DNA of 64,000 bases, taken from Polytrichum commune (taxonomy: Eukaryota; Streptophyta; Polytrichopsida; Polytrichales; Polytrichaceae). Below are positions 9,255-61,930 of this stretch, piece after piece (the first letter of the stretch is position 1; every line of letters begins with the position of its first letter). The notes under the pieces were generated by a model, which was not told the DNA's origin, did not search any database, and saw only the letters and a list, made by a program, of their open reading frames with translations. The DNA is taken from assembly GCA_950295325.1 (NCBI GenBank), contig OX485809.1, positions 37,327,081-37,391,080 on the forward strand. Direction: 5' to 3'. The position numbers and the translations under genes were made by a program.

Positions 9255-10779
9255 ATTTTAAGTGAAGAAGAGGAATGGCCCTCTGCATCCCAATTGCCGC
9301 TGGTTGAAATGCAGCTAGTAATGAATAATATGAACAAGAAAATCTGCCAATAATTCACAGCTAGTAGCGAAGGAAGGCCTTGGAATCCAGGGTGGAGACC
9401 TTTCCCCCATTGTAGAAATTGTCGGAAGTGGCGTACAGCAGTTTGTAGTGAATCTGGAGGATGACGAAGAGGAATGGCCCTCTGAACCCAATCCGCCGGT
9501 TGAAATGCGGCTAATGAGAAATTATATGAAAAAGCATATGAGACAAGGAAGATTTAGAAATGCTGGCCTTCCAGGGTGGAGATCTCCTCCGCCTCGTAGA
9601 AGCTGTTCAAGATAGTGCAGAGCAATTCTAGTGAAACCCGCGAGTGAAGAAGAGGAATGGCGACCCCCTTTATTCCAATCCGCCGGTCGAAATGCAACTA
9701 ATAATTAAGAATCTGAACAAGTGAGAGCTAGTAGCGCAGGAAGACTTGGAATTGCTAGCCTTCCAGAGTGAAGATCTGCTTCTCCTTGTAGAAATTGTTG
9801 AAGACGTCGCAGAGATATTCCAATGAATCCGGAAAATGAAGAAGAGGATTGATCCTCTGAATCCCTATCCGCCAATGGAAATTCTGCTAATTTTGAATAC
9901 GAACAAATAAATATACCAAGGAAGACTTGGATTTTCTGGCCTTCCGGGGTGCAGTTCTCCTCCTTGCAGAAAATGTTAAAGTGTTCGGGAGCATTTCTAC
10001 TGAACTCGGAGAATGTAGAAGAGGAATACCCGCCGTCTGAATTCTAATCCGCCGGTCGAAATGCACCTAATAATTCCTTGCAGAATTGTTGAAGATGGCG
10101 TTGAGTTATTCTAAGAACGAAGAAGAGGAACAAACCTCTGAATCTCAATCCGCCGGTTGAGACGCTGCTAAAAATTAGCGTAAGAACTAGTAACTCTACC
10201 AATAACTCACAGCTACTTGTAGCGAAGAAAGACTTGGAGATGTTGGCCTTCCAGAGTGGAGGTCTCCTCCACCTTGTAAAAATTGTTGGAGATGGCGTAA
10301 AGCAATTCTAGTGAACCTAGCGACTGAAGAAGAGGAATGGCCCTCTGAATTCCAATCCGCCTGCTGAACAAGTTAGTCTATCAAATCACTTGAGCTAGTA
10401 ACGAAGAAAGGCTTGGAAATGCTGGGCTTGCAGGATAGACATCTCCTCCTCGTAGAAGTTGTTGAAGATGGTGTGGAGAAATTCTAGTGAATGCGGAGCA
10501 TGAAGAAGAGGTATCATGGCCAATCCGCCGGTTGAAATGCAGGTAATAAAGATATGAACAAGCCAGTCTACCAAAAAAGTGACAGCTACTAGTAACAGAA
10601 GGAAGACATGGAAATGTTTCCCCTTCCCCTTCCAGGGTGGAGATCTCCTCGTCCCTCTTGCAGAAATTGTTGAAAATGGCCAAAAGCATTCATACTGAAT
10701 CCGGAGATTGAAGAAGAGGAATGGCACTCCGAATTCCAATCCGCCAGTTGAGAAACTTAACCTATCAAAATCAGTTCAC
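9255..10779 (-). repeat. Tandem array of decayed dirigent 3' ends (about nine copies)
   Basis: Units of about 180-190 bp follow one another directly downstream of the dirigent stop codon. Each reads on the minus strand as a relic of the last about 27 codons (a FNNFY..EE.STLEG..F..FLRY pattern) plus 3' flank. Plus-strand markers recur about every 185 bp: GAAGAAGAGGAATGGC, CCAATCCGCCGGTTGAAATG and CTAGTAGCGAAG. The marker GAGATCTCCTCC...GTAGAAATTGTTGAAG appears near 9570, 9765, 10445 and 10640, with variants elsewhere. Copies are 70-85% alike by eye, with several lacking one part. Two of the best preserved still read AIFNNFCKRDEEISTLEG and TIFNNFYEEEMSILQAQHF. Confidence 0.85.
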
Positions 10780-11391
10780 CTAGTAGCGAAGAAACACTTG
10801 GAAATGCTGTCCCTCCAGGGTAGAGATCTCCTCCTCCTTGTAGAAATTGTTGAAGGTAGCATACCCACGAGCGAAGCGAAACATACCCGTGCCACCGGTG
10901 ACAGTAATCTCACTAAAAGCAGGAGACGGAAAGTTATGCGTGGTCCCTTGAAAACTGAGAGTGCCATTGAACCCGTCACCATTACTACCCCCCTGGAACG
11001 ATGCAGTGAAATGCCACGAGAATGCCAACCCAGGTCCCCCCTTCCCAACCTCATCCACCACACGGATCCCCTGCGCTCTTCCCATCTCCACAGACCGCTC
11101 ATCACTCCCCTTGGTCAGCTTATTATCAAACGTAATAATGCTGCTCTTCAACGCCTTTCGGCTAGGTTTCATGGCCACTTGCTGCATGCCGGCGGAGTTC
11201 GGGAAGGATGTGAATAGCCCCGGGTTGTGCATGTAGAATTCCAAGCTGCTCGGAGGGGAAGAAGAAAATTGGTATTCCAGCTGCTGCAGCTGCGTCGTCA
11301 AACATCCTGCTGTCACTACACTGGTACATTGCAGCACTATTATGGCCACACTCAGCACGACTGCCAACATCCAAACGGCCACGAGTGCCAT
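10780..11391 (-). CDS. Dirigent-domain protein, secreted
   Basis: A single-exon frame of 203 residues starting at the ATG whose first base is 11391 (context GAGCTATGG). An open extension upstream to 11670 would add 93 residues. The shorter start is preferred because it puts a strong hydrophobic segment (residues 2-28, LVAVWMLAVVLSVAIIVL) at the N-terminus as signal peptide or anchor, and dirigents are usually about 180-200 residues. Dirigent hallmarks are GRAQG at 104-108, FNGTLSFQG at 141-149 with an N-glycosylation site NGT, and GGTGMFRFARGYA at 166-178. Dirigent proteins steer stereoselective coupling of phenoxy radicals in lignan and cell-wall phenolic synthesis in the apoplast. Substrate cannot be inferred here. 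The last about 27 codons are echoed in the downstream tandem array. Confidence 0.85.
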   Translation of the reverse strand: MALVAVWMLAVVLSVAIIVLQCTSVVTAGCLTTQLQQLEYQFSSSPPSSLEFYMHNPGLFTSFPNSAGMQQVAMKPSRKALKSSIITFDNKLTKGSDERSVEMGRAQGIRVVDEVGKGGPGLAFSWHFTASFQGGSNGDGFNGTLSFQGTTHNFPSPAFSEITVTGGTGMFRFARGYATFNNFYKEEEISTLEGQHFQVFLRY

Positions 11392-11953
11392 AGCTCGGAT
11401 ATGGAGCTTGTTGCAGTCCAAAGTTAAAACATGCAAGAAGGTGGTGTTCGGATGCTCCTCGCCGGATTCTGAGTTGGTTTCTGCTGCTTCGACGGCTACC
11501 AGTGCGTGGGCTACCATATCAGAGGAAGAAGATGGCCACATTCCTCCTGGCCCATACCTAGTCCCAACGTGATGAAGCGGTCGATGAGCGAGTGCTATTG
11601 TGGAATTTGATCCGAATGTTGAGTGTTTGTGAAGCAATGCATGGAAGTAGAAGCAAGGGAGTGAGTGCAAACTGTGGCTCTTGTTGGCTTATACTAGTGT
11701 GTCCTGTGGTGCTCATCCTGGCACTGGTACCGATGTTGAGGATGCATGGGTTGTGGAGTTTCCAAATTTGTAGAGACTGAAGTTGCGCGGCGCGAGTGTT
11801 AGTAGGTAGATTAGACCGATCCCACAGGCGCCATGCAAAGTGAGAGAGGAGATGGGAAATTGAAGAGGCAGAGCTAAGTTCCTGACTGCAAGAATCTATC
11901 GTGCGAAAGGACACGATCGACGTTGAAATGGGAAAAAGCCCAGCACACAGTAA

Positions 11954-15233: not shown

Positions 15234-15908
15234 CTAACCCTTTTGTGGTTTCTCTCCAATGAAGTGGGCATCAGAAATATATTTTATTGCATGTGCAGCT
15301 TGTGTTGGAAGCACTTGTGCCACATGAGGATTCAAGTACTTTGTTGCCTTCACCAACATGGACAACAACACTTTCATATCATACTCTTGCACCAAGATTT
15401 TGGCCCTATCTCTACCAATATATTTTGTAATCCATGTCAAGTTGAACTCTTTAAATCTAGGGTCTAACATTAATGCCAACATGTTGTGAGTTTTTTCCTT
15501 TACAAAACATGTAGCAGAGGCTGAGAATGATGCGAAAACTCCAAATGCCCCACCTCCTATGTGAGCATACAAAATCTCTAACTCTGAATTGGCCTCCCCA
15601 AGTCTATAAGGTGGCACACGTGATGCCCTTGTGTTCACATCCAGTTGCAACTTTTTGCATATGGTAGTGCAAGCCACTAGTAAGGCATCGGAAAGCAACC
15701 AATAGTGAGGGAACTAGAAATGTTTGTTCTTCTTTAATGCATCTTGCCAAATCCTCCAAACTGCAAGTTCCTCCACCTCCAACATCTCATCATGCCCCTT
15801 AATTGTGGTGTTTTCAATGGCTTCGAAGCATGGGTAGATCACTCCATTGTCAAGTTGAACACCACGTGCGGCCAAAAACAATCTTCTTTTGGTAAGTTGC
15901 ACCACCAA
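15234..15908 (-). pseudogene. hAT-like transposase relic
   Basis: Two adjoining minus-strand frames (15908-15714 and 15698-15234) are separated by stops and a short gap. The second holds NMLALMLDPRFKEFNLTWI, which matches the conserved LDPR(F/Y)K block of plant hAT transposases before the dimerisation region. The zinc-finger N-terminus and catalytic segments are missing, so it cannot encode an active enzyme. No TIRs or 8-bp duplication were identified. The hAT assignment is by motif only. Confidence 0.55.
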
Positions 15909-16265
15909 AATGGGTCAAAATTTTATCGAATTTTTTTCATGAGTAGATATACACAGTCTTTATGACACAGTTAAAAGTGGTAACTAAATTTGATGATTTG
16001 TTTTTTTCATAAAACATACCATTTCTAACTAGAATGACACATAATTGAACTAAAACAATTACTTAAAAAAATAAAGATGACTAAAAATTTCAATAAAGTA
16101 TACAAAAGATACTATCAATGATGATGTATATGTAGAAAAAATATCATAAATTTTAAAATTATATATGACATGTAATATAGGGGTAGCAAACTTTGTCCGC
16201 ACGTGGTGTCAACTTGACAATTAAGTGACCTCCCCGTGCTTCGAAGTTGAAGGTGGTGCTACCAA
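15805..16265. repeat. Inverted duplication of about 70 bp around a 320-bp AT-rich spacer
   Basis: The stretch 15805-15872 (GGCTTCGAAGCATGGG...GTCAAGTTGAACACCACG) reappears in reverse complement at about 16195-16265 (CGTGGTGTCAACTTGACAAT...CCGTGCTTCGAAG). The left arm overlaps the 5' part of the hAT-like relic. The spacer is very AT-rich. Confidence 0.65.
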
Positions 16266-25760: not shown

Positions 25761-28358
25761 TCAAATCGAGCCATGTGGTTTCTCCCAGACAGCTGAGAAA
25801 TATATCTCATTGTCATTCTTGTCAGTCTTCGGACAGGTGATCCACATGTGACGTTTGTATCGAAGCCTTCTGAAGTAAAACAAATATTCTTGCAGGTCAT
25901 CTCGTGAGGCAAAAAACCTGTCTAGCCACAGAAGGCCGCCTGGACGCAGTACCCTGTCAAAATCAAACAGTATAAAATCCAGCAACTGGTGATCAACCCA
26001 TGCATCAAAGAACAGAGTTGTGTGTACCAAGTCGAGGGTGTTGTCGAAGAATGGCAGTCGCTGATTGATGGAGAGGTACAAGGGAAGAAGGCCTCTGAGA
26101 GCAATTGTCTCACTGAACGGTGCCCCAAGGTTAAGTGTGGTTGACGCTATGGTGACGTTATGCTCCTTCATGCGCGCTGCGAATGTCCCAGTACCCATAC
26201 TGTAATCTATACCAATCCGAATCTCCCCAGGCTTGATTGCCAAAACATCAGTAATCAAAAATTCGGCATCGGTTGTATTGGGAACCACCCATCGCTGCCT
26301 CTCATGCCCTTTTAGGTCAAAGCATGGGCTGCACTTGAAGAATTTCTTGCGATGCTTGTAATCTGCAAGGCAGGTGAAGTTCTTGCAGTAGTAGTTGTCC
26401 CACCGAATGTTTTGGTCTCCTGGAACTGCCCACAAGGCGTCGCTTGCAGGAAGAGGTTTTGTGTACTCCTTTGGACCTCGAGCTCTGCAGCGCCTCCGTG
26501 GTAGAGGATCACATCCCCTGATTATGAGTTGTTGTGCGGTCACCCAGTCATCCTTACAGTACTCTCCTACATCATAGTCCATGTACTTCTCCAGGAGTAT
26601 CTTGTTTGTCACACAGGCATGGCCAATTGCCCCGTATGTTGCATTCACTCCCATGAAGTTCTTCAGTCCCCCTCGATTCTCCCTCACCTGACATGACATC
26701 CCTTCCCTTGGCTCCGTAAGAAGCCAGAACAAATTTTGCTAACAGCTCATCTTCCGCACACAATTTCAGAGGCATGCCAGTAACGCTCCGTCAACTAACA
26801 TTGTACGTGGACACTTTGAAGAGTTTCCATCCTGTACAGGATTTGGTAATTGAATGGTAAGACCAAATCCTGAACGTCGCATCGACTAACATTTTCTAAG
26901 ACGAAGGCTGATATACAAAAGAGTGTACACTTCTTGAAGAAACTGTCAATATCGGGGTTATAGCAGGTTGGTTGCATCCCTTGGGATCGGTAGAAGCCAC
27001 AAACAAAATCACAAACAGCTCATCTTCCACACATAATTTCACATAAGCATGCCATTAACGTTCTGTCAGCTAACATTATAATTGGACACTCCTGTTTCCA
27101 TCTGTGCAGAGTTTGGCCAAAGCCCTGAACGCTGCAACGTCTATAAATTTCTAGGACGAAGGCTAACATACGAAAAAGTGCACATATCTTGAAGGACTTC
27201 CCTTCCTGGCTTCATTACAAACCAGAACAAAATTGGCTAACAGCTATCTTCCAAACACAATTTCATATGAGCATACCATTAACGCTCTGTCAACTAATAT
27301 TGTAACTGGACAATCCTGTCTCCATCCTGTACAGAATTTGGCAATTGAAAGGTCAGACCAGAATATTGATCAAAACCCTGAACGCTGCATCGTCTATGAA
27401 TTTCTAGGACGAAGGGTAAATATACGAAAGAGTGTACATTTCTTGAAGTAGTTGTCAATGTCGGGGTTATTGCAGGACGGTTGCCCTAACTTCTCTGTTT
27501 CGTCGTGCCGATGCATTGCAGGTCTAGGATATGTCAATAGTGAATAATGTTCAGTGTCAGACGCTCAGGTTACTTAATGAACTCAATCCTGGACGAGCAA
27601 TTTGTAGGATGCCGGAGAGGAAGATCGTATTGTGGGCGGGGGAGAGGGGAACCACTTACCTTGATATACTTGCGAATCTCTTCACGCTCAAAGAAATCAA
27701 TCAGAGGGTCATCTTCAAGGTCATCTGACTCTGAGTCTGCAAGCGGTTCTTTAATTTCAACCTTGGAATGTTTCCCATGATCAGCCTCTTGACCATTTCC
27801 CACCTTGAACTCCTTCTGGAGCACCGTCAACCGTCTTGCCACGCCTTCGAGCTCTGTCGACATCTCTACCAAGAAGTTGATACTTCTTTGTCTTTCAAGT
27901 TTCAGCTGCCCGATCACATTCCCTCTGGTACTCGGGAATTTTCTATCTGCGACTTGTTGTAACTCCTTGTAAGAATCATCGATCTTGTCCAGTAAATCTG
28001 TGATGATCGACGACAACTTTGTAACCTGGTCAGTCATGCTATTCACATTAAGTCTGACTGTGGATTCTACAAAACCGGAATTTTGCAAGCAAGCACCGAA
28101 GGAAGGGAAATGGAGCACCAAGCTCACAATGGCAAACACAACCAGCATTCCAAGGAGAAAGTAACTCCACTTTCCACCTTTGACTGCATTTCTCACAGAC
28201 ATGAAACTTCTCGCAGGTAAACCTCTTTCTCTTTCTCTTACAACCCTGTCACTGCTAACCGAGCGATCCTTCGAAACCCATTCTGTCATCACTTCTCGAG
28301 TCATCTTGCTCCCAACCCCACAGAGATCCCTGATCTCTTGATTGATCTTCCCCTCCAC
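25761..28358 (-). CDS. Membrane-anchored methyltransferase-like protein (At1g29790/At5g40830-like family)
   Basis: Two exons. Exon 1 runs 28358 to 27660 (233 codons, donor ATCAAG|GTAAGT). Exon 2 runs 26687 to 25761 (308 codons plus stop, acceptor CATGTCAG|GTGAGG). The intron is phase 0 and 972 bp, giving a 541-residue protein. Exon 1 encodes a short cytosolic tail, one membrane segment at about 64-83 (WSYFLLGMLVVFAIVSLVL) and a helical stalk, typical of type II Golgi/membrane proteins. The join restores the family block EEIRKYI...NFMGVNATYGAIGHAC. Exon 2 holds YMDYDVGEYC, CDPLPRRRC (about 292-300), a degenerate SAM-binding loop (GIDYSMGTGTFAARM, about 392-406) and DRVLRPGGLLWLDRFF. The family is annotated as SAM-dependent methyltransferase but enzymatic activity is uncertain. 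The intron contains a three-copy tandem array. Confidence 0.85.
26699..27487 (-). repeat. Three-copy tandem array inside the methyltransferase intron
   Basis: Copies lie at about 26699-26976, 26977-27196 and 27197-27486. Each begins CCCTTSSS...GAAGCCA..ACAAA, then AACAGCTCATCTTCC, GCATRCCATTAACGC, CTGAACGYTGCATCG and TTCTAGGACGAAGG. Copies 1 and 3 also share a 3' tail, GTCAATRTCGGGGTTAT. The array reaches to within about 10 bp of the exon 2 acceptor, so the amplified unit looks like the 3' end of the intron itself. Confidence 0.85.
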
Positions 28359-28747
28359 CCTCCCCTTGCCTAATTATCTCACAGACATCCAGCTAACCAT
28401 TTCATTAAATCAACACCGTGTTCCAGCTTCCAAGAGAACTGAAACCTGGAGCTGCCACCTCCCAGTTCAAGAAATTCCAACGTCAGCTTTCTCTTCAACC
28501 ATGGCCAACTCCTGCTTCCGACCAACTCCACGCTTCACATAAATAACCTGTATGTAAATTCAAATACACAACAACATGTAGTTCCACCAGCTCCAAACTG
28601 TAATAACATCCAAATTTCTCTTTAACTCAAAAACCCCGCAATCTTTGCCTACGTCACAGACCGGGCGTAGACTCCAGCCCCAAATGTGTAGCCGAGGCTC
28701 AAGACAAAGAATCCTCTAGCTGACAAATGCCCCTCACGCTATTGATC

Positions 28748-42505: not shown

Positions 42506-42617
42506 TAAGAGAATGTCGCATGTAAGCTTTCAAATAGAGGATTACGGGAGGATTACAGGAGTGATGCATTCGTAGTCACGTTTCTTCGAACTAAATGTCT
42601 TGGCAGAATCTGTCGTA

Positions 42618-43080
42618 AATTTGAGAGACAGGTAAATCCTGGGTAATTCTCTGGTTGTTTAGCAGACCTGTGTCCATATTCGGGAGTTTGGGAATTCATT
42701 TCGACAGCTCGTGTCTGTGCAATTAGGTGATATGTGTGATTTGTTGTGGTTGAATTCTTTTGATGCTCCTTTCAATTCGTAAGTTCTTGTTCTGAGGTTA
42801 AGCTCGGTGGAACTGTGCAATTCAGTTGGTATCCTAAAGTGATGTCTGCAGGAATTTGAGATACCCAATCTCTCTGAATTTCTTTCGGTGTTTAGCAGAT
42901 CTGTGTCCATGTCCGGGAGCTGGGGAATTCATTCGGCGGCTCGTGTCTGTGCAATTAGGCGATATGGTGTAATTTCTTGTGATTGACATCTTTTGATGCT
43001 CCTGTCACTTTGTGAGTTCTTGTTCTAGGGTTAAGCTCGGTGGAGCCGTGCAATTTAGTTGGTGTTCTAAGATGATGGGG
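42618..43080 (+). repeat. Two-copy tandem repeat, period about 233 bp
   Basis: TTTAGCAGAYCTGTGTCCAT starts at 42658 and 42891. CTCGTGTCTGTGCAATTAGG and TTAAGCTCGGTGGA also recur once per unit. It lies directly after the coding-like block inside the TIR element. Confidence 0.8.
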
Positions 43081-43091
43081 CAGGGATTGGT

Positions 43092-43830
43092 GTAGGTTGT
43101 ATAAATTTTCAGGGTTTAGGGTGTTCAACAATCAGCTCCACCTCGTATGGGCTCCAGATCCTTCTGTGTATCTCCTGAATCATGAATGTGGTGATGTAAT
43201 TGTGGTTTGCCAACCACATAACCTACTTTGCCTGTTATCTAAGTTCTTAGTACATTTCACTGAGAATGAAGGTCAGCCATGTTGGTGCTATTCATCTGTG
43301 AATTGCAAGAGATTGACATTATCATTTGGTTTGTGGGTTAATGAAATTGATGCAAGAATATGTTGTTGTGGGGGGAAAGGGGTTGTTGAAGGTTGTATGT
43401 ATTTCCGAGGTTTAGGGTGTTCTACATTGAGCTCCACCTCGTATGGAGTCCAGATGCCTCTGTGTATATCCTGAAGCATGAACGTGGTGATGCATTTGTG
43501 ATTAGCCAAGCACGTTACCTATTTTGACTTTGATGCAAGTGCTTAGTACATTTCCCTGGATAGCATGAAGGTCAGCCATGTTTCTGCTATTTATCTGTGA
43601 ATTGCAAGAAAATGACATTCGCATTTGGTTTGTGGTTAAACGAAATTGGTGCAAGGATATGTAGTTGTGGCGGGAAAGGGGTTGTTGTAGGTTTTGTATA
43701 TGTCCGGGGTTGAGGGCGTTAAACATCCAGCTCTGAGTTGGATGGAGCTCAAATGGTTCTGTGTAAATCCTGAAGTCTGAATCTGATGATACAATTGTGA
43801 TTAGCCAAGCACATATCTACTTGCAGTTGA
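43092..43830 (+). repeat. Three-copy tandem repeat, period about 298 bp
   Basis: Units start near 43092, 43388 and 43687 (G(T/A)AGGTTGTAT...GGTTTAGGGTGTT). Shared landmarks are CAGCTCCACCTCGTATGG, GAAGGTCAGCCATGTT and GTTGTTG(T/A)AGG. It follows the 233-bp repeat in the same element. Confidence 0.85.
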
Positions 43831-44721
43831 CTTAACTGCTTATTACAGCCATGGAAGTGCCGTTTATCCGCGAATTGCATGAACAGGACACCCATATACC
43901 TTAGACGATATGATGGGGTCCAGTTGCCTCAATTCCTTAGTAAGGTATTGCGTAATATTCCTGATCATGACAGAGCAGTGTTGCTCAAGACACATGAGAT
44001 TGGGCATACCTTCTCCGTGCCAAACTTGCAGAATAAAAAAAAAGACCACATGTAATGAACTTCAATTGTTTATAACAGAAACACTTCAACCATGCCACTA
44101 AACCCTAAAACCCTTCACTCAGGATATACGATGAGGAAAGAGACGAATACACACAGGCGTCCTTGACAGTACTGGAATATACAAAGCTTTGGATACCTAT
44201 TATGATTTCGGTACAAGAATGCAGTCAGAACAATCGATTTATTTGGAAATTTATCAAACCAGAGGACTTGCCTGTTGTCCCTTGGAGTTCGGAGGATTCG
44301 AGCAGGCAGCCAACCTTGAGCTACAACTCACAGAGCAGAGTGTATCCCGCAGCAGCCATTCAGGAAAACAGAGCGTTCATTGACCCTAAACCCTCAAAGC
44401 TACAGAAACAGCAGCCTCCCTCAAAGCTACAGAATCCTCCCTCAAGGTAATCACTGCCAGCAAGGCCAGCTAAGTGACAAGCTCTCATTTCAACACCTTC
44501 CTTGAAACAGGTTCGAAAGTGGAAAGTGGACAGGTGGGTTATTTTTGGCCAGGGTCGGACATGTCATCACAGGGAATATTCCTGACCGTTTTTGGCTTGA
44601 AGAGCCAATATGCAAGTAACGGTGGGGGAGTGCCACTCTAAAGAAATTTAATGGATGTTTGGAGCCCTTCAAAGCGCATTTGGAGAGCCTGCCTTACTGC
44701 CCAAGGGTGGAGATGCTCTAA

Positions 44722-45434
44722 GATCTTCAATCAAAATGACCACAGGGGGGACTTATGAGAACCAAATATGATAACTGAGAACTTCATTAGAAGCGTATGA
44801 ATTTCTGCTACTATCTATGTTTTGCACTTGAATAGCTTTAACTGAACAAAGATATCTACCTAGACATACAAAAGGCAATTAGGGACAACAGAAGCTTACT
44901 TGATAGCCACTTCTTCGCACTCATGGATACTCTTTATGTCAGAATTTGAAAAATTCAAATCAATAGAATCTTGTACTTGGCCTAGGAGTTCTAATTCTTG
45001 TATGTAGTTTGTTTTAACAAATGCAAATTCATGCGACCGTCAATGTTGTCACCTTCTTGTTCACTTTCTGTCAAGGATAGCATTTTCTGCACTTCCAATT
45101 CCAAGCCATCTTATACAATTTGCTAAAATATTCCATACTAGTCACCTCAGACCTTAGCGGAACAACAAGAATGGTGGTAAAGGAAAAAAACATCAAGATG
45201 ACCTAAATAGGTCTCTCAAATGAACATCCAAGCATGTTTCAAAGGGCCATGCAATCTTAGAGGGCAATCCCAAGCAAACTACACTAGCCAATACTAATGT
45301 GGCCTTCCACAAACAATGTAGAGTAAGCTCTCAACCTAAGCACAAACTCTGAAACCAAATTTTAAGTTTATAATAGCATCAATTGATGTTCTTGGAACAA
45401 GAAAAACAACACTACATCATCATGAATTTGAGTA
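44722..45434. other. Intergenic spacer, no gene seen
   Basis: AT-rich DNA between two TIR elements. No ORF or repeat is supported. Confidence 0.4.
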
Positions 45435-45437
45435 TGA

Positions 45438-46488
45438 GGGCCGGTTTACATTATGGACCATGAAGTTGGACCATGGCTCTGCAAGGCAGCTGATTGGCTG
45501 TTGAAGTTGTGCCAGGACAACTTTGGTTTACACTAAGAAAAAAATGTCAGAGGGACCATGAAGGCCGAGAGGTGGTCGGGTAGGAAAAGGCAAGGGCCCA
45601 TGGCAAAGAAATGCCATCTTAGTAAATTTTTAATGAATCCACCCTCCATGTGCCTTAGTCATATCATAGCCCATGAGACATACCATTACTACCTTGCCCT
45701 ACCCCTTAAACCGGCTCCCATGTGTTTCACAAAACAATGTGGGACATCTAAATCTCAAGAATTTGAGTGTAGATTTTTTTTTTTGCTCAACCAACTGAAA
45801 TGTTTGGAATTTGTGGGCTTGTAATATACCGTTGGAAAAGGTCTTGAAAATACCTTTCCAACGGTATATTACATGCCACAAGAAAATGTAAAATTGCAGT
45901 TGAAAACAAAAAAAGAAAAATTTGTAGTCGTTTAGTGACTGTAGATCAGGGTGGTCAAAAGAATTGCAATGGGAAATCTTCTAACACTAATCATCAAAGA
46001 ATTAAACTTTAGTGTTGAGCAAGGTATGGCGGTAACAACATTAAATATAATCAAACACTAAATATCTTATTTAGTGTATTGACAACACAAGATACATGTC
46101 ACATGTAAATTACAATGAACATGTACAAGTTAAATCGCTCATTTTTTGGTAAAAATTGTTGTGAGAAGATTTGCAAGCCACATCTTCGACACATTTAACA
46201 TGAAGTGAAGACAAATGAAGCCCAAGAAAAGACAAGAGAATGGTCAAACTTGATTTTTTTTTCAAAATTTCCCTTTTTGGGCATGTATTAAAAAAATCAA
46301 CACCTTTACATTTTGGTGTATGGTCATTCTTCTTGGTCCACATTCGGTTTACACCTAGCGAGGGGCCCAAGTCTCTTGAAACTAATTGTTTATGAAGTTG
46401 GACCATGAAAGTCGGACCATGAACTCGGACCATTGACAAAGGCCATCTTCCATGGTCCGACTTCATGGTCCATAGTGTTAACCGACCC
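45438..46488. mobile_element. TIR element GGGYCGGTT..., 1051 bp, TGA duplication
   Basis: Left GGGCCGGTTTACATTATGGA and right TCCATAGTGTTAACCGACCC are inverted repeats, continuing through CCATGAAGTYGGACCATGG. The flanks are TGA at 45435-45437 and 46489-46491. Several GGACCATGAA motifs crowd the right end. The 3-bp TNA duplication again fits a PIF/Harbinger-like MITE. The interior shares about 200 bp with the MITE at 55291-55598, so one was probably nested in the other's ancestor. Confidence 0.75.
45821..45872. repeat. Near-perfect hairpin
   Basis: GTAATATACCGTTGGAAA and its complement TTTCCAACGGTATATTAC enclose a loop of about 15 bases, GGTCTTGAAAATACC, itself partly paired. A decayed version lies at about 55430-55475. 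It is inside the 45438-46488 element. Confidence 0.8.
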
Positions 46489-46958
46489 TGATTTAAACAA
46501 ACTGCTTGTTCATAGTGCATTATAGAATAAGAAATGCCCATTGCTCAAGTATTACTTCCAATGATGACCACGTACTAAACTATACTTCTAACAAACAAAA
46601 GTAGAAAACCACAGTGTTTGAATGTGGCTCCCAAGGTAACACCTCCCCTCAAGAACAAGTGACCTCGAAACTAATTGGGAACTAAGCATTCCCAAGGTGG
46701 ATGCTCCACCATACATTTTTGCTTGCCCGCAAGGACAAAATACATGCAATTAGGGTTTCGGGAGACTTGAACATGAGAGGTCCGAAAGTTGTCCGAGTAT
46801 AAGATATAGAATATGTCCGAGTACATGTATTTTGTATCATGAGTACATGTACACGCCAACACTGATTGTGGTAGTGGGAATGAAGATCCCATTTTTGGAC
46901 TTGGCACAATCTTACTAGAGAAGAGCTGGGTGAAGCTCGTTTTGAGCCTCCAACCTAA

Positions 46959-47250
46959 GGTATGTGGGTGTTATTTGGTTCCTTTTTCATGTTCTCCAAC
47001 TTCTACCAATTAGGTTTGCACAACAAAACTTGTGTTGCTTTAGCAAATCTATGATGTAACATATGCGAAAATCGGATTTCATGTGCTTTAGTTATGGTTA
47101 TCGGAAGCGCATCTTTGTTGATTTCTTAACTAGACACACAAGTCCTCCCATTCGTGATCATTATTCGGTGTAGAGTAATTATTAGTATATGAAGATGTAG
47201 TCCAATCTCTTTTAAACATGTGTCTTTATGATGTTTGTTCTTTGATTTCA
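46959..47250 (-). mobile_element. Interspersed repeat family F, copy 3, truncated
   Basis: Starts GGTATGTGGGTGTTATT. The right portion (TTTTAAACATGTGTCTTTAT, TTTGTTCTTTGATTTCA) is the complement of the left end of the copies at 6865 and 21572. One end is missing. Confidence 0.5.
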
Positions 47251-47443
47251 CTGAACCATATAGTATTAGAAGAAAAATGGGCCTCCAAAAAACCTTTACA
47301 TTATTATTTGTTGGGTGCTAAAACTTGTGAATACTTGCAACATCCAAAAGGCACCATATGTGCTAACATCAAATTTGGAATGGGTCTAGATCAATAAGAG
47401 TAATTTGCGAGTTGGCACCAAGTACATGAACTTAACACCCTCA

Positions 47444-48024
47444 GGGCCACTTCACACACAAGGTTGAAGGCCCTTAGACCATGGCAATGTAAGAGCTCTC
47501 ATTGGTTGAAAAGGCGGAAACCGTCTAGGTTCACTTCACACTAGGAGGCGAAGGTCCAAAGAAAAGTTCGTGGATGAAAAGTCTACATGGAATCATACAT
47601 GGCAGGTTGTGGATAAGGGTGCATGGTCTGCCAGAATTTGCATCAGACCTACCTCCAAGAGGTGAGCTTGACGCAAATTCCGGGAGACCATGATTTTTTT
47701 GATTTTTTTCCCAACATGACATATTTCATGACAAACTGCATGGCAAATTCCATAATAGATTCTAGGACAGACAAACGCCACCAAGTAATTCTCTTAAACT
47801 GATTAAATTTGAAACATATTATATTAATCCAATTCCTCCCCTCTTTTTCTACCAACAAAATATGCAATGGTCCCGCAACATGGTCCACTCTCACTTCACA
47901 CTATGCTTGAAGGCCCATGACTACATAAAACAATTCCCAACACCCATGGTCCGGCCTTTGGATGAGAGTCAAGGGTCCTCACCATTACAAGGTCACGGCT
48001 TTTGGCTCATGTGTGAAGTGGCCC
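47444..48024 (+). mobile_element. TIR element, GGGCCACTTCACAC family, copy E3 (581 bp)
   Basis: Perfect ends GGGCCACTTCACACA and TGTGTGAAGTGGCCC, flanked by TCA at 47441-47443 and 48025-48027. Internal text shared with E2 includes TCTCATTGGTTGAAAAGGC and GGGAGACCATG. It is best preserved at the ends of the three copies in the window. Confidence 0.8.
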
Positions 48025-51299: not shown

Positions 51300-52216
51300 A
51301 AGTCTCTCTCCGGTAGAGATACTCATCTGCATCATCCTCAGGCTCACACATCCATATCTTCCTATCTACCTAAGTGACATCCTTTAGGTTGCACTAAGAA
51401 TAGATCCAGACGAAGAATTGGCATGTTTAACTTAGGTTACAACAATATATGTACATGATAGTCACTTGCATGCAATCCATCCGAGTTTCTAACTACATGT
51501 CAGAGCTTCTTCGTCCACAACTTGCTTCCGAATTGCATCACAAGGATTGACATGTATTGCATTGGAGAGCCCCAGCTTGTAGATGTTGCGGAATGAGTAT
51601 CCAGATGTGGCATTAGCATTCCGTTGGCGGAGTCTGGACTGCGCCTCCCATAGAATCCTCATCTGTTAGTAGAACCTGATTTGTTTGTATACACATCTAT
51701 GTACATGGCTACTTGCATCCAATGCAATCCATCGAGTTTGCTATATGTCAGAGCTTCGTCGTCCACAGCAGCTACTCTGAAATGCATCACAAGTATTGAT
51801 GGGTCTTGAAGGTGATGAGCTTGTCCTGCACTGGCTTGGGAAGGAATGAAGCAGCTGCTCATTGCGCATGCGCTTGGCGCTGCATTCGAGCATCCGAGGT
51901 TAAAGATGTTGCGGAATGCGTATCCGCGACGGGACCACAAGTCGTAGCATTAGCATTTCATTGGCGTAGTCTGGAGAGCTGTGGCTTTCAGTGAATCCTG
52001 ATCTGCATCATCCTCAGGCTCACGCATCCATCTGTGGAAGAATCATGTGGTGTCCTCAATTGGTAAATTAGGTTACCACATCTGTATATGTACGTGGATA
52101 CTTGTATACAATCCATCGAGTTTCTACATGTCAGGGCTTCTCAGAATTGCACCACAAGTACTGATGGGTCATGAAACGTGATGAGCTTGCAATGAACTTG
52201 AAAATAAAGCAGCAGC
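51300..52216 (-). repeat. Tandem copies of the 3' end of J-protein gene 1
   Basis: Downstream of the stop codon at 52217, two clear copies and one partial copy follow at about 320-360 bp spacing. The marker AAGRTGTTGCGGAA...GTATCC lies at 52261 in the gene, 51903 and 51580 in the copies. TAGCATTAGCATT..RTTGGCG.AGTCTGGA and AATCCTC/GATCTGCATCATCCTCAGGC also recur. The repeated part covers the last about 40 codons of the CDS plus 3' flank (GCTCATTGCGCATG encodes the C-terminal MRRQTHAQ region on the minus strand). The farthest copy (51300-51525) keeps only flank sequence (CAATCCATC.GAGTTTCTA, CATGTCAGAGCTTC). Confidence 0.85.
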
Positions 52217-52930
52217 TCATTGCGCATGTGTTTGACGCCGCATCCGAGCGCCCCAGGTTGAAGGTGTTGCGGAAGAAGTATCCGTGACGGGATCACCGCA
52301 TGTAGGATTAACATTCCGTTGACGGAGTCTGGAGAGCTGAACCTCCCATTGAATCCTCCACGCATCCGATGCACCGTCGGTCCCCCGAGTCCGCCGTGAT
52401 CCCCTGGAATATTGCCAACTCGATCCCGCACCCATCTCCAGCGCCTGCGCAAACAAGGGATGCAGCAAAGCGTAGTCGTAGTCGGCCTTCTTCTCGGGGT
52501 CGGACAAAACCTCGTACGCGTGTTGGACCTCCAAAAACTTTTGAGTGCATTCCTCGCGCTTGTCGAGTGGGCAGACGTCGGGGTGGTACATTCTTGCCAT
52601 CTTCCGGTATGCCATCTTAATGTCGGAGATACTTCCGCTCATGTGGTCCACGCCCAACACACCATACAGAGTGGAGGAGCTCGTGGTGGATGATGCTGGC
52701 TCTGCGATTGCACTGCACCGGCAATTCAGAGACATATGGCGATGGTCTGGTGCATCATTTCCGGTCCGGTTGGACTTCCAGCTCCTATGATCTGTTTGGT
52801 TCAGTTGATTCACACCACCAAAGCTCACCAAATTTTTGTGAGAGAAGATTGAGCGGGACGATGAGCGCGCCACCGATCCACCCAGAGATGCTAAAAGTGG
52901 CAGAGTTGAAGTTGCGCTTACAAATTCCAT
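52217..52930 (-). CDS. Plastid-type J-domain protein 1 (DnaJ/J20-like)
   Basis: A single exon of 237 residues from the ATG at 52930. The frame is open upstream to an ATG at 52957, but 52930 is preferred because it gives a Ser-rich transit-like N-terminus beginning MEF, matching the MEA start of the paralogue at 60967. The J domain spans about residues 88-152: TLYGVLGVD, AYRKMARMYHPDV with the HPD triad at 116-118, and FLEVQHAYEVLSDPEKKADYD. No Gly/Phe or zinc-finger domain, so type III. Small plastid J-proteins of this sort (J20/DJC class) hand clients to stromal Hsp70. The C-terminal TWGARMRR block is shared with the paralogue. Both ends of the gene are copied in flanking tandem arrays. Confidence 0.85.
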   Translation of the reverse strand: MEFVSATSTLPLLASLGGSVARSSSRSIFSHKNLVSFGGVNQLNQTDHRSWKSNRTGNDAPDHRHMSLNCRCSAIAEPASSTTSSSTLYGVLGVDHMSGSISDIKMAYRKMARMYHPDVCPLDKREECTQKFLEVQHAYEVLSDPEKKADYDYALLHPLFAQALEMGAGSSWQYSRGSRRTRGTDGASDAWRIQWEVQLSRLRQRNVNPTCGDPVTDTSSATPSTWGARMRRQTHAQ

Positions 52931-53590
52931 ACGTGATTTCTTACGCTTGCACTTCAAAACCCTACAACAATTCTATCAGAGTGCTGCTCGCTTCGACGGG
53001 ACAGAGATTGGAACGGCCAAAGCGGTGACCACACTCGCAGACAAATTCAGCTCGAAACACCTTCCCTGTCTTCAACAGAAAACCTGAGAGATTGCATTGA
53101 ATCTGAGGTTTGACTGGTTGCAACTTTCATGTTAGATGTCAACGTGAGCCTACAAATTCCATACCTGATTTTTGAATCTTGCTCTCCAAAACCTAAAAAA
53201 ATTCTATCAGAGTGCTGCTCATTTCGACGGGATAGAGATTGGAATGGGCAAAGCGGTTACCATACTCACAGGCGAATTCAGCTCGAAACTCCTCCCCTGT
53301 CTGGAACAGAAAACCTGAGAGATTGCACTAAATCTGAGGTTTGACAACTTGTAGGACTTCAATGTGAGCCTACAAATACCATACGTGACTTGAAGCATGC
53401 ACTCCAAAACCTACAACAATCCTATTAGGGTGGTGCTCGCTTAAACAAGACAGAAATTGGAATGGACAAAGGGAACACCACAATTGGATACGAATTCAGC
53501 TTAAAACACCTTGCTGTGTACAAAACCTGATCGATTGCACTGACTCACTCTGAGATTTTGACTAATTGCAAACTTGAATGCGGACACTAC
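52919..53590 (-). repeat. Tandem copies of the 5' end of J-protein gene 1, start codon included
   Basis: Three units, period 220-232 bp. The minus-strand start region CRYATGGAATTTGTA lies at 52930 (true start), at 53162 (ATGGAATTTGTAGG) and at 53382 (ATGGTATTTGTAGG). Other landmarks once per unit are CAATTCTATCAGAGTGCTGC, GGGAYAGAGATTGGAA and AACCTGAGAGATTGCA. Similarity to the gene stops a few bases after codon 5, so only about 10-15 coding bases were amplified with the 5' flank. If transcribed, each copy supplies an upstream ATG. Confidence 0.88.
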
Positions 53591-55290
53591 AGTGCCTCCC
53601 ACCGCTGTCTTACGAGACCTTCCAGTAAACTTTGCGTACAGACTTGCAAGTATCCACCAAAAAAACGAGGTTAATTAAGTTTATGTACAACGAAAGTGAG
53701 TAGACAACATCCTGCAACACAAGTTGGTGGACCCAGTAGCCTCATATACCAACCAACTCGATTTCTGCAACGACATTGCGAGTCTCGTAGGAATGACGAG
53801 GATGACACGTGTCCCGCACCTTCCTCTCCTCCTCTACAATACAGGTCTACACACACACTCTTCGCCATAAGATAAGATTCTATTCTCTACACAATTTACT
53901 ATGTTTTTGACCCCTTCCTCAACTTGATGCAAACTTCATTGAAAACAACATCAACATGTGGGAAGCAGATCCCAAGGGTGCCTGTGAGTCGTTGGATCAA
54001 GTAGGCAAGTAGGGCGAGCTTCTAAGGATGCAAGTGGAGGCCCCAAGCGGATGGGCAGGTGATGAGCTCCGAAGTTCGGGTTATTGAGGAGTAAGTTAAA
54101 GATCACTCACCTTTTTCCTCCTCGTACTGTACCATTTTCTACCTACACCTGCAATATAGTGTGTTGGACTGTGTTGAGTTTCCTTCAATTGAAGTTTATC
54201 TTCCACGTCAGTGGGTAACTTATCCCATCGATTACGCCTGCCTTGTCACTGGGCCTATCAGTGATGAGAGCTTTCCGCTTTACATGCAAGCAGCCCAAAT
54301 CCACTCCTTAGTTGTAGATTGAGGGATGCGGTCTTCAAATTTAGCTGAGAGGGGGTCATTCATTGGGAGGCGATGGACAGAGAGCTTGAAAATTGTCTGT
54401 CAGAGAACTCAACTTTGTCAATCCTCAGGTTTCGCTTTGGATGCTTGGATCCCAAGCGGATCTCAACCATCTAGTGGATCATTGTTACACGCTCTTGAAG
54501 GATACAGAGTCTGTTTCCTAAGATCCTTGCAATGTGAGGAAATTTATGGGGAAGACACACAATTATGGCATGTGCTTCTTCATGTTAAGAAATAAAGGTC
54601 CTCGATGTGCAGGCATGAAGCAAGGAAGGCCGAGTGTGTACTATGTAGTGGATTAAGCTAGATCATTATGTGTCTAAGACTCCCATGCATCTCACAAACA
54701 ATCCACTGCTCAGCCTCAGAAGAGGCTGTTAATATGCAATGAAATATCATGAAGTATCCATAGAGAGTTCTGGACAGGACATCTGAGATTTCAGTATTTT
54801 ATATCACCACTAAGTCTATGCACATGGACATCATTCACAGCGTCAAGCATCAAGCATTTCAAAGATGAGTTGCACATTGTCATCATCTGCTTCGACTGAC
54901 AGTCAAAGAGGAACCCTGAACTGAAAACTAGGCTTGAAACATCTGTTCAACATTCAAGTCGATGACACGTGTCGTGAGAAACATCTCTTCAACATTCGAG
55001 TCGATGACACGTATAGTGGCATCGGCAGACAAAAGAATTCTTTTGATTGTAAGAGGGTCACACTTTTGCAGGTTAAGGAAATAATTAGAAACTTGGGAAG
55101 CCCTATATATTGAGTTCAATTAGAATCAAGGTTTCTTTTGGTTTTACAAGTATTTGCATGTTGGCTGCACAATGCATAATGAAGAATGCCATTTGGTTTT
55201 TGTTTGTTAATTCAAAATTTAAAGTTGGTGATACGATGCAATTAAATGGATTTTTTTGAAGTTAGGCTCAAAGGAACATTAGAAGTAAAC
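53591..55290. other. Intergenic spacer with a small 42-bp duplication
   Basis: The unit AACATCT.TTCAACATTCRAG followed by TCGATGACACGT is repeated at about 54939 and 54981. A hairpin AAAAGAACCGCAG...CTGCAGTTCTTTT-like stretch begins the MITE downstream. No supported gene. Confidence 0.4.
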
Positions 55291-55598
55291 TATGCCAAAA
55301 AGAACCGCAGTTGAAATCGGCCGCAGTTCTTTTAATCAACCTCATCTACAATTGCTAAACGACTACGCATTTGTTTTTTTTTTTTTCGTTCAACAACTTT
55401 AATTTTAAGAATTTGGGGGTATGTAAGATACTGATTGGAAAGGTCTTGAAAATACCTTTCCAACGGTATATTGCACGCCTTGAATTTTTTTAAAGTTTTA
55501 GAGAAAAATAAATAAAAATAAAAATTTGTAGTTGTTTAGTGACTGCACATCAGGTTGGTCAAAAGAATCCGATTGTGATTGCAGTTTTTTTGGGCATA
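55291..55598. mobile_element. MITE with TA duplication, TGCCMAAAA ends (308 bp)
   Basis: Left TATGCCAAAAAGAACCGCAG and right CTGCAATCACAATCGG-complement ending TTTTTTTGGGCATA form an inverted pair. TA sits at both edges, consistent with a Tc1/mariner-type duplication. The interior shares AAAATACCTTTCCAACGGTA and TTTGTAGTYGTTTAGTGACT with the element at 45438-46488. Confidence 0.55.
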
Positions 55599-55599
55599 T

Positions 55600-56439
55600 T
55601 TTTCTACTAGAGCTTTCAAAAAACTTTGTAGTAAGAAGCTCGTTAGCTCGTCGTGCATCAGAGCCTATTTTAAAAGTTGGCTGAAATTTTTGAGACCTCA
55701 TCTTTCCACTTCTTACACTTTGAAAGAGTTCTAGAATAAGAAATAGGGTATGTGCATGGGACCTGCTTTCCTAAATCTCAAATCGGCCTGTGCAAGGTCA
55801 CCTTGGGCCACCTATCCTAGTAAGACAAGCTAGAAAACCGGATTTTAATAACTTGAAATTCACTTATAAATTCATAAATCCTAGGACCCAACCATATTGC
55901 AATAGATTGGCATCCAAAGTTCCTAAAGACGTCAAATGAAGCATGTGGCTATAGTGCATTCCTCCATATTGTAGCTCCAACTTTTGGTATAAAATTCTTC
56001 ATATGAGTATTTGCTAGAGGCCATTTCTCATATGTATGCGGACAAGTTCTGTTGCATTTGATACAAGAAAAACTTCTAGTTGAAAAAATAGGAAAATGTC
56101 AAAGGCTTGTCAAATAATGCAAGTGAGGAAATGAAGGGGGATATATAGATTCATTGCGCACAAAATATACTTTGCTAAAGTGTGCACCGTTGTATATCTC
56201 ACAACATATATGTCATGGCTGTAGATCTAGATGGCGTAGCGAACGCAAACATACATATAAAGGCACAACATTTAACTAATTCTAGCTTGGCGTATATGAT
56301 CAGGGTCTGCTTTGGCCCGCCTCTGGCCCATTGGTAGGTGGCCCCCTGTGGTTGGTTGGCGGAGGGGCGGTCAAACCACTAGAACAATGGCTACTGTGTT
56401 AGTCGGCAGTCACCGCCTTCTTACCGTTGCGTGAAAATT
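55600..56439. other. Spacer before copia remnant, no gene seen
   Basis: AT-rich unique sequence with a GC-rich block at 56310-56380 (GGCCCGCCTCTGGCCC). No ORF is supported. Confidence 0.35.
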
Positions 56440-59386: not shown

Positions 59387-60292
59387 AGATTGACCATGAG
59401 TTGTGGATGCATCAGGTTTCTTGCTCCCCCCTGCCGCAGTCGCTTCCGCACTAATGCTATTCCATCTGTACACAAACGACGATACCAAAACCGTTTCGGC
59501 CATGGATGAGTGACAAAAGGCTGAAAATCGTGCTCGTCGCATTCGCTTGCATTCACACATATGCTGTGGATGCATCAAGTTTCTTGCTCATCCTTGCCGC
59601 AGTCGCTCCCGTGCGAATGGCTATCCATCTGCACAGACAAACAGCGATACCTAAACCATGTCGGCCATGGATGACTGACAAATGTCTCGACATCTTTTAG
59701 GTCCTTGTGCTTGTCGCATTCGCTCGCATCCACATATATGTTGTGGATCCATTAAGTTTCTTTGCTCATACTTACTCATCCGAACCCCAGTCGCTTCTGT
59801 ACCGATGGCTTTCCATCCGTACACAGACGGCGATACCTAAACCATATTGGCCATGGATGATTGACAAAAGGCTGGAAATTGCTATGTTCCTTGTGCATGT
59901 CGCATTCGCTCGCATTTACAGATGTGTTGTGGATACATTGAGGTTCTTGCTCATCCTTACCACAGTCGCTTCTATACGGACAACTTCCCATCTGCACACA
60001 AACGGCGACACCTAAACCAGTTCGGGCATAAACGAATGACAAAAATGCTGGAAATCTCTGAGTTCCGATACCAAATCTATTTCGGCCATGGATGAGTAAC
60101 GAAAATCTGGAAATTGCAATTTCCTTATGCCTATCGCAGTCGCTCGCATCATGTGTTGTGGATGCATCAGGTTTCTTGCTCATCCTTGTAGTAGTTGCTT
60201 CGGTACCAACACCATTCCATCTGTACACAAACAACGAGCCTAAACCATGTCAGCCATGGATGAGTGACAGAATGCTAGAATGGCTTACAACA
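59387..60292 (-). repeat. Tandem copies of the 3' end of J-protein gene 2
   Basis: At least four copies plus a partial one. The marker TTCCTTGTGCNTGTCGCATTC lies at 60301 in the gene, then 60121, 59887, 59701 and about 59525 (spacing 176-234 bp). Also once per unit: GTTGTGGATGCATCAGGTTT, CCGTACCAATGCYATTCCAT, and CGGCCATGGATGAGTGACAA. The amplified part spans the last about ten codons (MRQAQGTR) and about 170 bp of 3' flank. Between 59887 and 60121 about 50 extra bases are inserted. Confidence 0.88.
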
Positions 60293-60967
60293 TCACCGAG
60301 TTCCTTGTGCTTGTCGCATCCGCTCGCCCCATGTCTTCTCGACAGGACCCCTGGCATCACGCTCCCGAAGTCTAGTAAGCTGAGTGAGCTGAGCTTCCCA
60401 TCGCATTTTCCAAGCTTCCGACACTCCATTATTCCCCCGTGCCCGCCGAGGAGGTCGACCACGCGAGTCCCCGACACCCATCTCGAAAGCTTTTGCGAAC
60501 AAAGGATGCAGCAAATGGTAGTCATAGTCAGCCTTCAGCTCAGGGTCTGACAATACCTCATACGCATTCTGGACCTCCAGAAACTTCTGTGTGCACTCGT
60601 CTCGCAAGCTCACAGGACACACATCGGGATGGTACTTCCTTGCCATCTGCCTGTAGGCTGCCTTGATTTCCAACAAGCTGGTGCCCTTGTCCACCCCTAA
60701 CACACTGTAAAATGTGGAGTCCGCGGATGCACTGCATCGGCAAGCTCCACCACCACCGCCATAGCTGCCCTCTTGTTCATGTGACCATCTCAGCTTCCTT
60801 ATAACACATGACGACTTCGAACTTCCAAACCATGCCCCTCCATGGTGTGAGGAGGGGAGTTTGAGAAACTGAGCATGTTGCACAGATGCACGAGAGTAGT
60901 TACGTGGTGGACATAAGCAGGATGCCGAGAGCTGCGACCTTAATGGGCTGAGTACAATTGCTTCCAT
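60293..60967 (-). CDS. Plastid-type J-domain protein 2 (DnaJ/J20-like)
   Basis: Single exon, 224 residues, ATG at 60967 and TGA at 60293-60295. Residues 1-80 are Ser/Arg-rich and acid-poor, like a chloroplast transit peptide, ending at a GGGGGACRCSA stretch. The J domain is at about 86-149: TFYSVLGVD, AYRQMARKYHPDV (HPD 113-115) and FLEVQNAYEVLSDPELKADYD. The C-terminus KTWGERMRQA parallels the paralogue at 52217-52930, which lies 7.4 kb away on the same strand, so a tandem duplication with divergence. Role inferred from the class: stimulates plastid Hsp70 ATPase and delivers clients. Its start and stop regions are both amplified in flanking arrays. Confidence 0.88.
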   Translation of the reverse strand: MEAIVLSPLRSQLSASCLCPPRNYSRASVQHAQFLKLPSSHHGGAWFGSSKSSCVIRKLRWSHEQEGSYGGGGGACRCSASADSTFYSVLGVDKGTSLLEIKAAYRQMARKYHPDVCPVSLRDECTQKFLEVQNAYEVLSDPELKADYDYHLLHPLFAKAFEMGVGDSRGRPPRRARGNNGVSEAWKMRWEAQLTQLTRLRERDARGPVEKTWGERMRQAQGTR

Positions 60968-61930
60968 GCCGTTTTCGACTCACTCTTCTTCAAAATACTG
61001 TAATCTATGATACCTTCAGTATGTACACAGAAACTTTTTTGTGGGAGCTGCCACACCGGCAGGAAAGGAACGAACAAGAGCAAGACTAACTTACTCACTC
61101 TCTGTACGAGTCCTGGCCGATTTCAAAAATTACTTCTACAGCAGAAAAGGAAACCACAATCGCGTGCACCCACTCAGAGCAAACTATTATCATTTCAAAA
61201 CTCCATCAGAACAATGTCACCAACGTGCATTCAACTACTCCCATGCCGTAGTCGACACACTCTACTCTTTTTTGGAATACTGTGACCTATAATACTCTAA
61301 AATTAGCTGCAAACTTGAAGCTTGCCACACTCGCAGGAAAGGATCGAACAAGAGTAAGAGTAGATTACTCACTCCGAATATACTGGCCGATTGCAAACAT
61401 GCCTTCAAGCACTTCTACGGCAGGAAAAGGAAACCACACTCGAGTAAACTTGCTCAGAGTAAACTAATATCCTTTCAAAACTCCATCAGAACAACGTCAA
61501 CAATGTGCTTACAACTGCTTCCACGCCGTTGTCGACACGGTTCTCTTCGGTGTATTGTACGCCCTATAATAACAATGCTCAAATTAGCTGCAAACTTGAA
61601 GCCTCGCTGGCAGGATTCAAGGTCCCAAGGATCGAAAGAGCAAAGAGAGTAACTTACTCACTCTCTATATATGAGTTGCCAATGGGCCTTCAAGCACTTC
61701 TACAGCAGAGAAGGAAACTACAGCGGACGGGTCAGAGCAAATTTATCCCTCAAAACTCCTCGGAAAGAAGTTCACCGATATGCTTAAAGCTGCAAACTTT
61801 CTGCCACACTATGTAGCACCTAAGCATCGCACAAACTAGGGCACTGTCTCTTGCTAACTTATTTAACACCTGGATTGCAAAGCTGACTACAGTTGTAGAG
61901 CAGAAAGGGAAGTTTCTGCATTTGCTCCGA
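60955..61930 (-). repeat. Tandem copies of the 5' end of J-protein gene 2, start codon included
   Basis: The start region CGGCATGGAAGCAATTG (ATG 60967) has counterparts at 61244 (ACGGCATGGGAGTAGTTG) and 61524 (ACGGCGTGGAAGCAGTTG, ATG lost), spacing 277-280 bp. A fourth, partial copy follows to about 61930. Landmarks once per unit are CAGGAAAGGAWCGAACAAGA, TTACTCACTC, GGCCGATT, TACAGCAGAAAAGGAAAC and CAAAACTCCATCAGAACAA. Similarity to coding sequence ends within about six codons. Confidence 0.88.

Follow-up and report, generated by a model that had tools for sequence, protein, structure and literature searches.

We characterized the local direct-repeat arrays that lie at the edges of several genes in a 64,000-nucleotide stretch of the genome of the moss Polytrichum commune (GenBank assembly GCA_950295325.1, contig OX485809.1, here C7, positions 37327081–37391080), referred to below as the window. 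The genome comprises 407.8 Mb in 64 contigs, and seven contigs of 42–78 Mb account for ~406 of its 408 Mb. Comparison of the window with itself (blastn, sensitive scoring) yielded 11 arrays, and none in each of ten dinucleotide shuffles, which rules out chance repeats. A first-pass annotation of this DNA had reported local tandem arrays at five genes, and this is borne out: ten of the arrays sit at or upstream of five genes identified through Pfam, and the eleventh lies inside a repeated element. Along the window, the genes and arrays are the following.

9255–10863, minus strand: nine-unit array (units of ~124–203 bp as cut in the analysis) at the stop side of the dirigent gene
10780–11670, minus strand: dirigent-like protein gene (PF03018, E = 3.2e-19), an open reading frame (ORF) with a TTG start, the start assignment being provisional
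25761–28358, minus strand: putative S-adenosylmethionine (SAM)-dependent methyltransferase gene, ORFs 25761–26732 and 27570–28358 read as two exons with a presumed join
26695–27484, minus strand: methyltransferase intron array of three units (282, 218 and 290 bp), situated at the acceptor end
28733–29001, minus strand: methyltransferase upstream array, two units with a period of 140 bp
37857–39284, minus strand: arginine methyltransferase (PRMT) gene, a single ORF with a TTG start, provisionally assigned (PF22528 (PRMT_C) and methyltransferase families)
39510–40429, minus strand: first array upstream of the PRMT gene, 313-bp period
40657–41052, no strand assigned: second array upstream of the PRMT gene, period of 161 bp
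41095–41447, no strand assigned: spaced direct repeat upstream of the PRMT gene (offset 260, span 99), not head-to-tail
42618–43847, no strand assigned: array inside a repeated element, not at a host gene edge
51428–52358, minus strand: irregular array at the stop side of J1, extending over the final 141 bp of its coding sequence
52217–52957, minus strand: J1, a DnaJ-domain protein gene (PF00226, E = 4.7e-20)
52902–53591, minus strand: array at the start side of J1, three units of 232, 221 and 237 bp
59389–60327, minus strand: array at the stop side of J2, five units as cut in the analysis, overlapping the last 34 bp of coding sequence
60293–60967, minus strand: J2, a DnaJ-domain protein gene (PF00226, E = 1.6e-20)
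60942–61793, minus strand: array at the start side of J2, three units of 290, 270 and 292 bp, with a 25-bp overlap with the start

The window arrays have periods of ~140–313 bp, and 10 of the 11 are head-to-tail in structure, the spaced repeat at 41095–41447 being the exception. Output of Tandem Repeats Finder (TRF) covers parts of only two of them (42618–43847 and 59389–60327); standard tandem-repeat settings miss such arrays because their copies are too diverged. Coding sequence is included in five of the ten arrays outside the element (dirigent once, J1 twice and J2 twice; overlaps of 25–141 bp), and the methyltransferase intron array ends ~6 bp short of what is probably the AG acceptor. 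The first-pass view that arrays start at the gene boundary thus holds for J1, J2 and the dirigent gene and closely for the methyltransferase intron; the upstream flank arrays that it listed lie 375 bp (methyltransferase) and 226 bp (PRMT) from the ORF starts. Of the two methyltransferase exons, the downstream one carries PF03141 (E = 4.3e-07) and the upstream one gave no Pfam match, and the Pfam basis of the label 'PRMT6-like', which came from the first-pass annotation, is PRMT_C (PF22528). Self-comparison at offsets <500 bp gave 57 direct and 24 inverted clusters, and 31 of the 32 inverted matches listed are self-palindromes; inverted duplication was accordingly rejected as the main local process.

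The neighbouring genes J1 and J2 are paralogues, and each has an array at both its start and its stop end. The likely start of J1 is the ATG near 52930 (MEFV, read from the translation), from which the start-side array reaches ~28 bp into the coding sequence, and the motif GTATGG(A/T)ATTTGTA around the start codon is kept in all three copies. At J2, the start codon reads ATGG in the two inner copies and GTGG in the outermost, and the start-side units of both genes stop just past the start codon. The gene-side unit of the dirigent array, at the other end of its gene, spans the last 83 bp of coding sequence. Arrays of J1 and J2 show no similarity to each other at E = 1e-3 in the self-comparison; as the genes are paralogous but their flanking arrays are unlike, each array probably arose, or was replaced, after the genes had separated. 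Insertion of a gene into an older array is ruled out for J1 and J2, the start-side and stop-side arrays of which lack similarity.

Beyond the window, arrays were called in 11 seeded random 10-kb pieces (110 kb) and in 33 gene loci of 5 kb (165 kb), hand-picked from the hit lists of three Pfam families (18 of 46 DnaJ, 9 of 25 HSP20 and 6 of 34 LHC hits). Six further loci of 3.2 kb (three DnaJ and three HSP20) were added after the first edge result, giving 39 in total; loci were chosen by hit quality, open frame and spacing, with the DNA unseen beforehand. Counting all arrays, we found 18 in the random DNA (1.64 per 10 kb, 10.6% of bases), 30 at the first 33 gene loci (1.82 per 10 kb, 9.7% of bases) and 11 in the 64 kb of the window (1.72 per 10 kb, 14% of bases). 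These 59 arrays, from the first 45 stretches including the window, have periods of 119–478 bp (5th–95th percentile) and comprise 39 head-to-tail and 20 spaced arrays, the head-to-tail ones making up ~6% of the DNA in the random and gene pieces.

Position relative to coding edges was scored first with a criterion fixed at the first edge test, by which the gene-side end of an array lies between 150 bp inside and 100 bp outside the edge. Ten of 30 arrays at the 33 genes fell there (4.3 expected, P = 0.007), as did 10 of 34 at all 39 genes (5.5 expected, P = 0.03). Among head-to-tail arrays, 9 of 19 lay at an edge by the 100-bp criterion (2.7 expected, P = 0.0003) and 12 of 19 by a 200-bp criterion (3.8 expected, a count reached in 0 of 3000 trials), compared with 1 of 15 spaced repeats. 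The gaps of the 12 to the coding edge are −82, −35, −34, 23, 39, 45, 54, 63, 75, 114, 120 and 184 bp, with seven arrays on stop sides and five on start sides, and the other 7 of the 19 lie 483 to 1795 bp away. Restricting the analysis to 38 curated edges, judged secure from protein ends, left 8 of 12 within 200 bp (2.5 expected, P = 0.0007), and coverage by arrays at the 39 loci was 17% within 600 bp of coding edges and 10% at 600–2000 bp (bootstrap fraction at or below zero, 0.024). The edge preference therefore recurs outside the window, clearly for head-to-tail arrays (a class defined post hoc) and weakly for all arrays.

Such a distribution might also arise with no edge targeting, if duplications occurred everywhere, were lost in coding sequence and were hidden by transposons away from genes. 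The similar density of all arrays in random and gene DNA, the crossing of coding edges at chance frequency outside the window and the transposon domains in 3 of the 11 random pieces (L001–L003) agree with this alternative. Against it, the density of head-to-tail arrays, measured over 78 edges, falls about ninefold, from 4.4 per 10 kb in an edge zone that reaches from 150 bp inside to 200 bp outside the coding edge, to 0.49 per 10 kb beyond it. By contrast, the fraction of DNA masked as sampled repeats, by a mask estimated to detect families from about a thousand copies upwards and no smaller ones, climbs only from 0.13 to 0.17 across the same interval. The excess also persisted when the null was restricted to DNA free of sampled repeats, by both the 200-bp (12 of 19 versus 4.07 expected, 0 of 3000 trials) and the 100-bp criterion (9 of 19 versus 3.1, P = 0.001). 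We consider an origin without edge targeting rather unlikely.

The first-pass annotation had also held that the arrays share no sequence and are not one repeat family, and no two window arrays match each other at E = 1e-3, shared J coding sequence aside. A genome-wide search covered the J1 start-side unit, the J2 and dirigent loci and positions 41000–47500; the J2 arrays matched the J2 locus only and the dirigent array matched only itself, in a search that can miss common words and weak repeats. The claim gives way in part at the J1 start-side unit, which has dispersed relatives (70–78% identical) at three places on contigs C6 and C1, once as an inverted pair. The array at 42618–43847 belongs to an element of ~2.66 kb with sharp borders (42066–44723), copies of which, 98–99% identical, occur at five other places (two on C1 and one each on C2, C3 and C4), and further partial or split ones at other sites; as this element carries diverged internal arrays, those arrays are older than its spread.

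Across the samples, a match to another sampled locus was found for 1 of 39 head-to-tail arrays, whereas 11 of the 24 spaced repeats and 93 of 300 pieces of background DNA (500 bp each) had one. Spaced repeats thus appear to match other loci as parts of transposons would, and the division into head-to-tail and spaced repeats seems to have biological meaning. A single-copy local source was found for J2, for the dirigent gene and, within the sample, for 38 of the 39 head-to-tail arrays, the exceptions being the J1 start-side unit and the element-borne array. One dispersed repeat family is ruled out for J2 and the dirigent gene and, within the limits of the sample, for those 38 arrays; a dispersed-repeat reading holds for 42618–43847 and partly for the J1 start-side unit. 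That the arrays in general are remains of mobile elements, either with internal tandem repeats or inserting near genes, would fit the 1 of 11 window arrays inside a repeated element and the scattered, once inverted, relatives of the J1 unit. The dispersed copies expected of a mobile element with internal repeats were not seen for the J2 and dirigent arrays in the above search, and 38 of the 39 head-to-tail arrays lack a match at any other sampled locus; we regard this origin as improbable.

One locus with a relative of the J1 unit (L045), which we take, by eye, to be an intron of a putative kelch-type phosphatase gene, aligns with two others (L046 and L047). L045 and L046 are 93–97% alike copies ~20 kb apart on C6. 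At ~288–479, L045 carries an extra block of ~190 bp, missing from L046 and L047, that repeats the adjoining sequence in inverted orientation and so points to an inverted duplication that probably took place there recently.

The divergence of copies bears on how the arrays grew. Identity to the gene-side copy, from near to far, was 83.5 and 79.1% at the start side of J1, 80.1 and 72.3% at the start side of J2, 78.1 and 83.3% at the stop side of J1, 77.7, 82.5, 83.1 and 82.7% at the stop side of J2, 78.2, 81.7, 79.2, 80.6, 70.5, 78.4, 76.2 and 80.7% in the dirigent array, 78.6 and 83.2% in the methyltransferase intron array, and 70.4, 87.8 (41 bp) and 73.8% in the fragmentary PRMT array. Only two of these seven arrays, the start sides of J1 and J2, fade outwards; the other five show no such stepwise outward growth, which contradicts the earlier statement that copies fade with distance from the gene. 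The nine dirigent units differ on average by 0.26 between adjacent and 0.25 between non-adjacent units, and the inner branches of their tree are short and of low support, so that the units appear nearly equidistant on a near star-shaped tree.

Kimura two-parameter distances (K) between the best copies of the 39 head-to-tail arrays have a median of 0.258, a value understated by local alignments and drawn from a small sample. Counts per step of 0.05 from 0 to 0.4 are 0, 1, 6, 1, 10, 6, 12 and 3. A K below 0.1 was found in 1 of the 39 arrays (none of the 29 from the gene loci and the window) and thus in 1 of the 24 with K < 0.3, which has P = 0.0008 under constant birth; when the youngest pair per array was taken, the count was 2 of 26 (P = 0.0025). 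Simulated detection was 0.99–1.0 up to K = 0.2, 0.93 at 0.3 and 0.65 at 0.4. Constant birth with any loss would leave younger classes at least as large as older ones, and the scarcity of young arrays therefore indicates that arrays were probably born at a higher rate formerly than now. Over the best copy pairs of the 59 arrays, transitions are about as frequent as transversions (ratio of 1.04), which makes repeat-targeted C-to-T mutation unlikely as the reason for the divergence and leaves that candidate without support. The scarcity of young arrays is a feature beyond the first-pass annotation, and together with the near-star dirigent tree it speaks against the duplication repeated over time that the annotation had envisaged.

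We propose, at about even probability, that the arrays date from an earlier period in which mostly unique DNA was duplicated locally in tandem, with a preference for open gene ends, and that this activity has since largely ceased. The proposal draws on the head-to-tail structure, the lack of further copies of most arrays elsewhere, the clustering at edges (post hoc), the star-like dirigent tree and the few young arrays. Ordinary local tandem duplication would have yielded the arrays, and further duplication or unequal exchange may have expanded them to a few copies (nine at most among those seen). Duplications would have started preferentially in open chromatin at both gene ends, possibly from the many double-strand breaks that plant gene ends take, and would have persisted there since the gene stays intact when a copy spans one of its ends, with the gene-side copy retaining the start codon and 5′ untranslated region (UTR) or the stop codon and 3′ UTR, and would thus have been tolerated by selection. 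As this expansion would be mostly past and nearly stopped, the window copies are now roughly 62–83% alike.

Among known forms of tandem repetition, minisatellites and satellite DNA are the obvious comparisons. The units described here are longer than those of classical minisatellites, and satellite DNA, in which a single family forms long homogeneous arrays at numerous places, does not describe these far shorter arrays of few diverged copies that are mostly private to one place. Closer likenesses come from break repair. Tandem duplications in plants have been attributed to repair of staggered breaks or adjacent nicks (Vaughn and Bennetzen 2014; Schiml et al. 2016, as cited in PMC7464560), and mammalian work describes small tandem duplications from break repair, with short (<100 bp) insertions (PMC8355091). 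As presented in these sources, such duplications share with the present arrays direct head-to-tail copies of local DNA, a record in plants and independence of dedicated machinery. The arrays here differ in their longer periods (119–478 bp against <100 bp), in that some are multi-copy, in that nearly all are old and in that the head-to-tail ones favour gene ends. In Arabidopsis, Spo11-1-oligos are reported to accumulate in gene promoters and terminators (PMC10804481), that is, at both gene ends, like the arrays; those data are a break map of another plant and not a record of duplication. A literature search on gene-edge arrays in mosses or plants returned no description of the pattern, which is not proof of its absence. 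Rather than a named genetic system, the pattern resembles the relic of an earlier burst of local duplication concentrated at gene ends.

A single-gene parallel, the promoter of VvmybA1 in grapevine, carries a 408-bp segment (GCE) in two, three or five copies (PMC7464560). As described there, it likewise consists of head-to-tail copies of a few hundred base pairs upstream of a start codon, but it concerns one gene with perfect copies and somatic change of copy number, whereas the present arrays occur at many unrelated genes, at both ends, with old copies. By analogy, selection might keep the arrays if extra promoter, terminator or 5′ UTR copies alter expression: VvmybA1 expression is reported to rise with the copy number of the promoter segment (PMC7464560), and the start-codon context is kept in all three J1 and two of three J2 start-side units. 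Start sides are not favoured among the 12 near-edge arrays, however (5, versus 7 on stop sides), and copies differ by 17–37% in the five arrays cut into units, and we think it very unlikely that selection accounts for the arrays.

Several points weigh against a past phase of duplication favouring gene ends. The separation of head-to-tail from spaced arrays, the limit of 200 bp and the set of curated edges all date from after inspection of the data, and the coding edges of multi-exon genes are approximate. The six added loci contributed four arrays, none at an edge and none head-to-tail, and weakened the edge effect; 16 of the 39 gene loci carry no array. Array ends at or inside the coding edge are at chance both for all arrays (4 of 34 versus 3.3 expected, P = 0.43) and for head-to-tail arrays (3 of 19 versus 1.7, P = 0.23). 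Ten head-to-tail arrays lie in the 110 kb of random DNA (0.91 per 10 kb; the first 33 gene loci have 1.15), and none of 20 ORFs searched with Pfam there, out of at least 56, had a clear host-gene domain (five matched gag, DDE, Helitron and PIF1-type domains and one weak AAA lid). The first-pass idea of a process acting on gene edges is supported in part, by the 12 of 19 head-to-tail arrays within 200 bp; exclusivity to edges is not supported, and edge crossing outside the window is at chance. The stop-side array of J2 has longer inner branches (support of 0.83 and 0.90) and is not a clean star, unit junctions are too diverged to read, and the cross-locus check is insensitive to low-copy repeats, as the element-borne array passed it despite its five other copies.

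A broader version of the proposal, which we hold as tentative and rather doubtful, is an ancestral, lineage-wide burst of 100–500-bp tandem duplication at the break-prone ends of thousands of genes, followed by shutdown, such that the arrays would preserve, like fossils, a map of where recombination or break hotspots lay in the ancestor. If this were true genome-wide, gene ends in the lineage would have been remodelled by tandem duplication at a scale that standard settings miss; the arrays would provide a sequence record of past break or crossover sites, testable against break maps, and why the duplication process slowed would become a question.

Other features of the sequence were recorded alongside. 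Eight local palindromes or fold-backs occur in the window (5238–5460, 8436–8592, 15821–16246, 35848–35997, 45774–45918, 46414–46471, 47622–47692 and 55280–55609), none at the edges of the five genes. Near the repeated element, 45567–46489 represents a repeat family of ~920 bp with many copies of 86–93% identity genome-wide (scores were obtained for 40 of 14804 candidates); the ~130 bp that immediately precede it are repeated along with the family, and there are short inverted matches between its ends. Strand asymmetry is strong over the 6 kb at 30001–36000 (GC skew of 0.27–0.44 and AT skew of −0.11 to −0.33 in 2-kb steps) and falls outside the range seen in the rest of the window. Elsewhere in the genome, a stretch of ~95 kb on C5 (1751760–1846160) holds 14 matches to chlorophyll-binding protein genes with identical domain scores.

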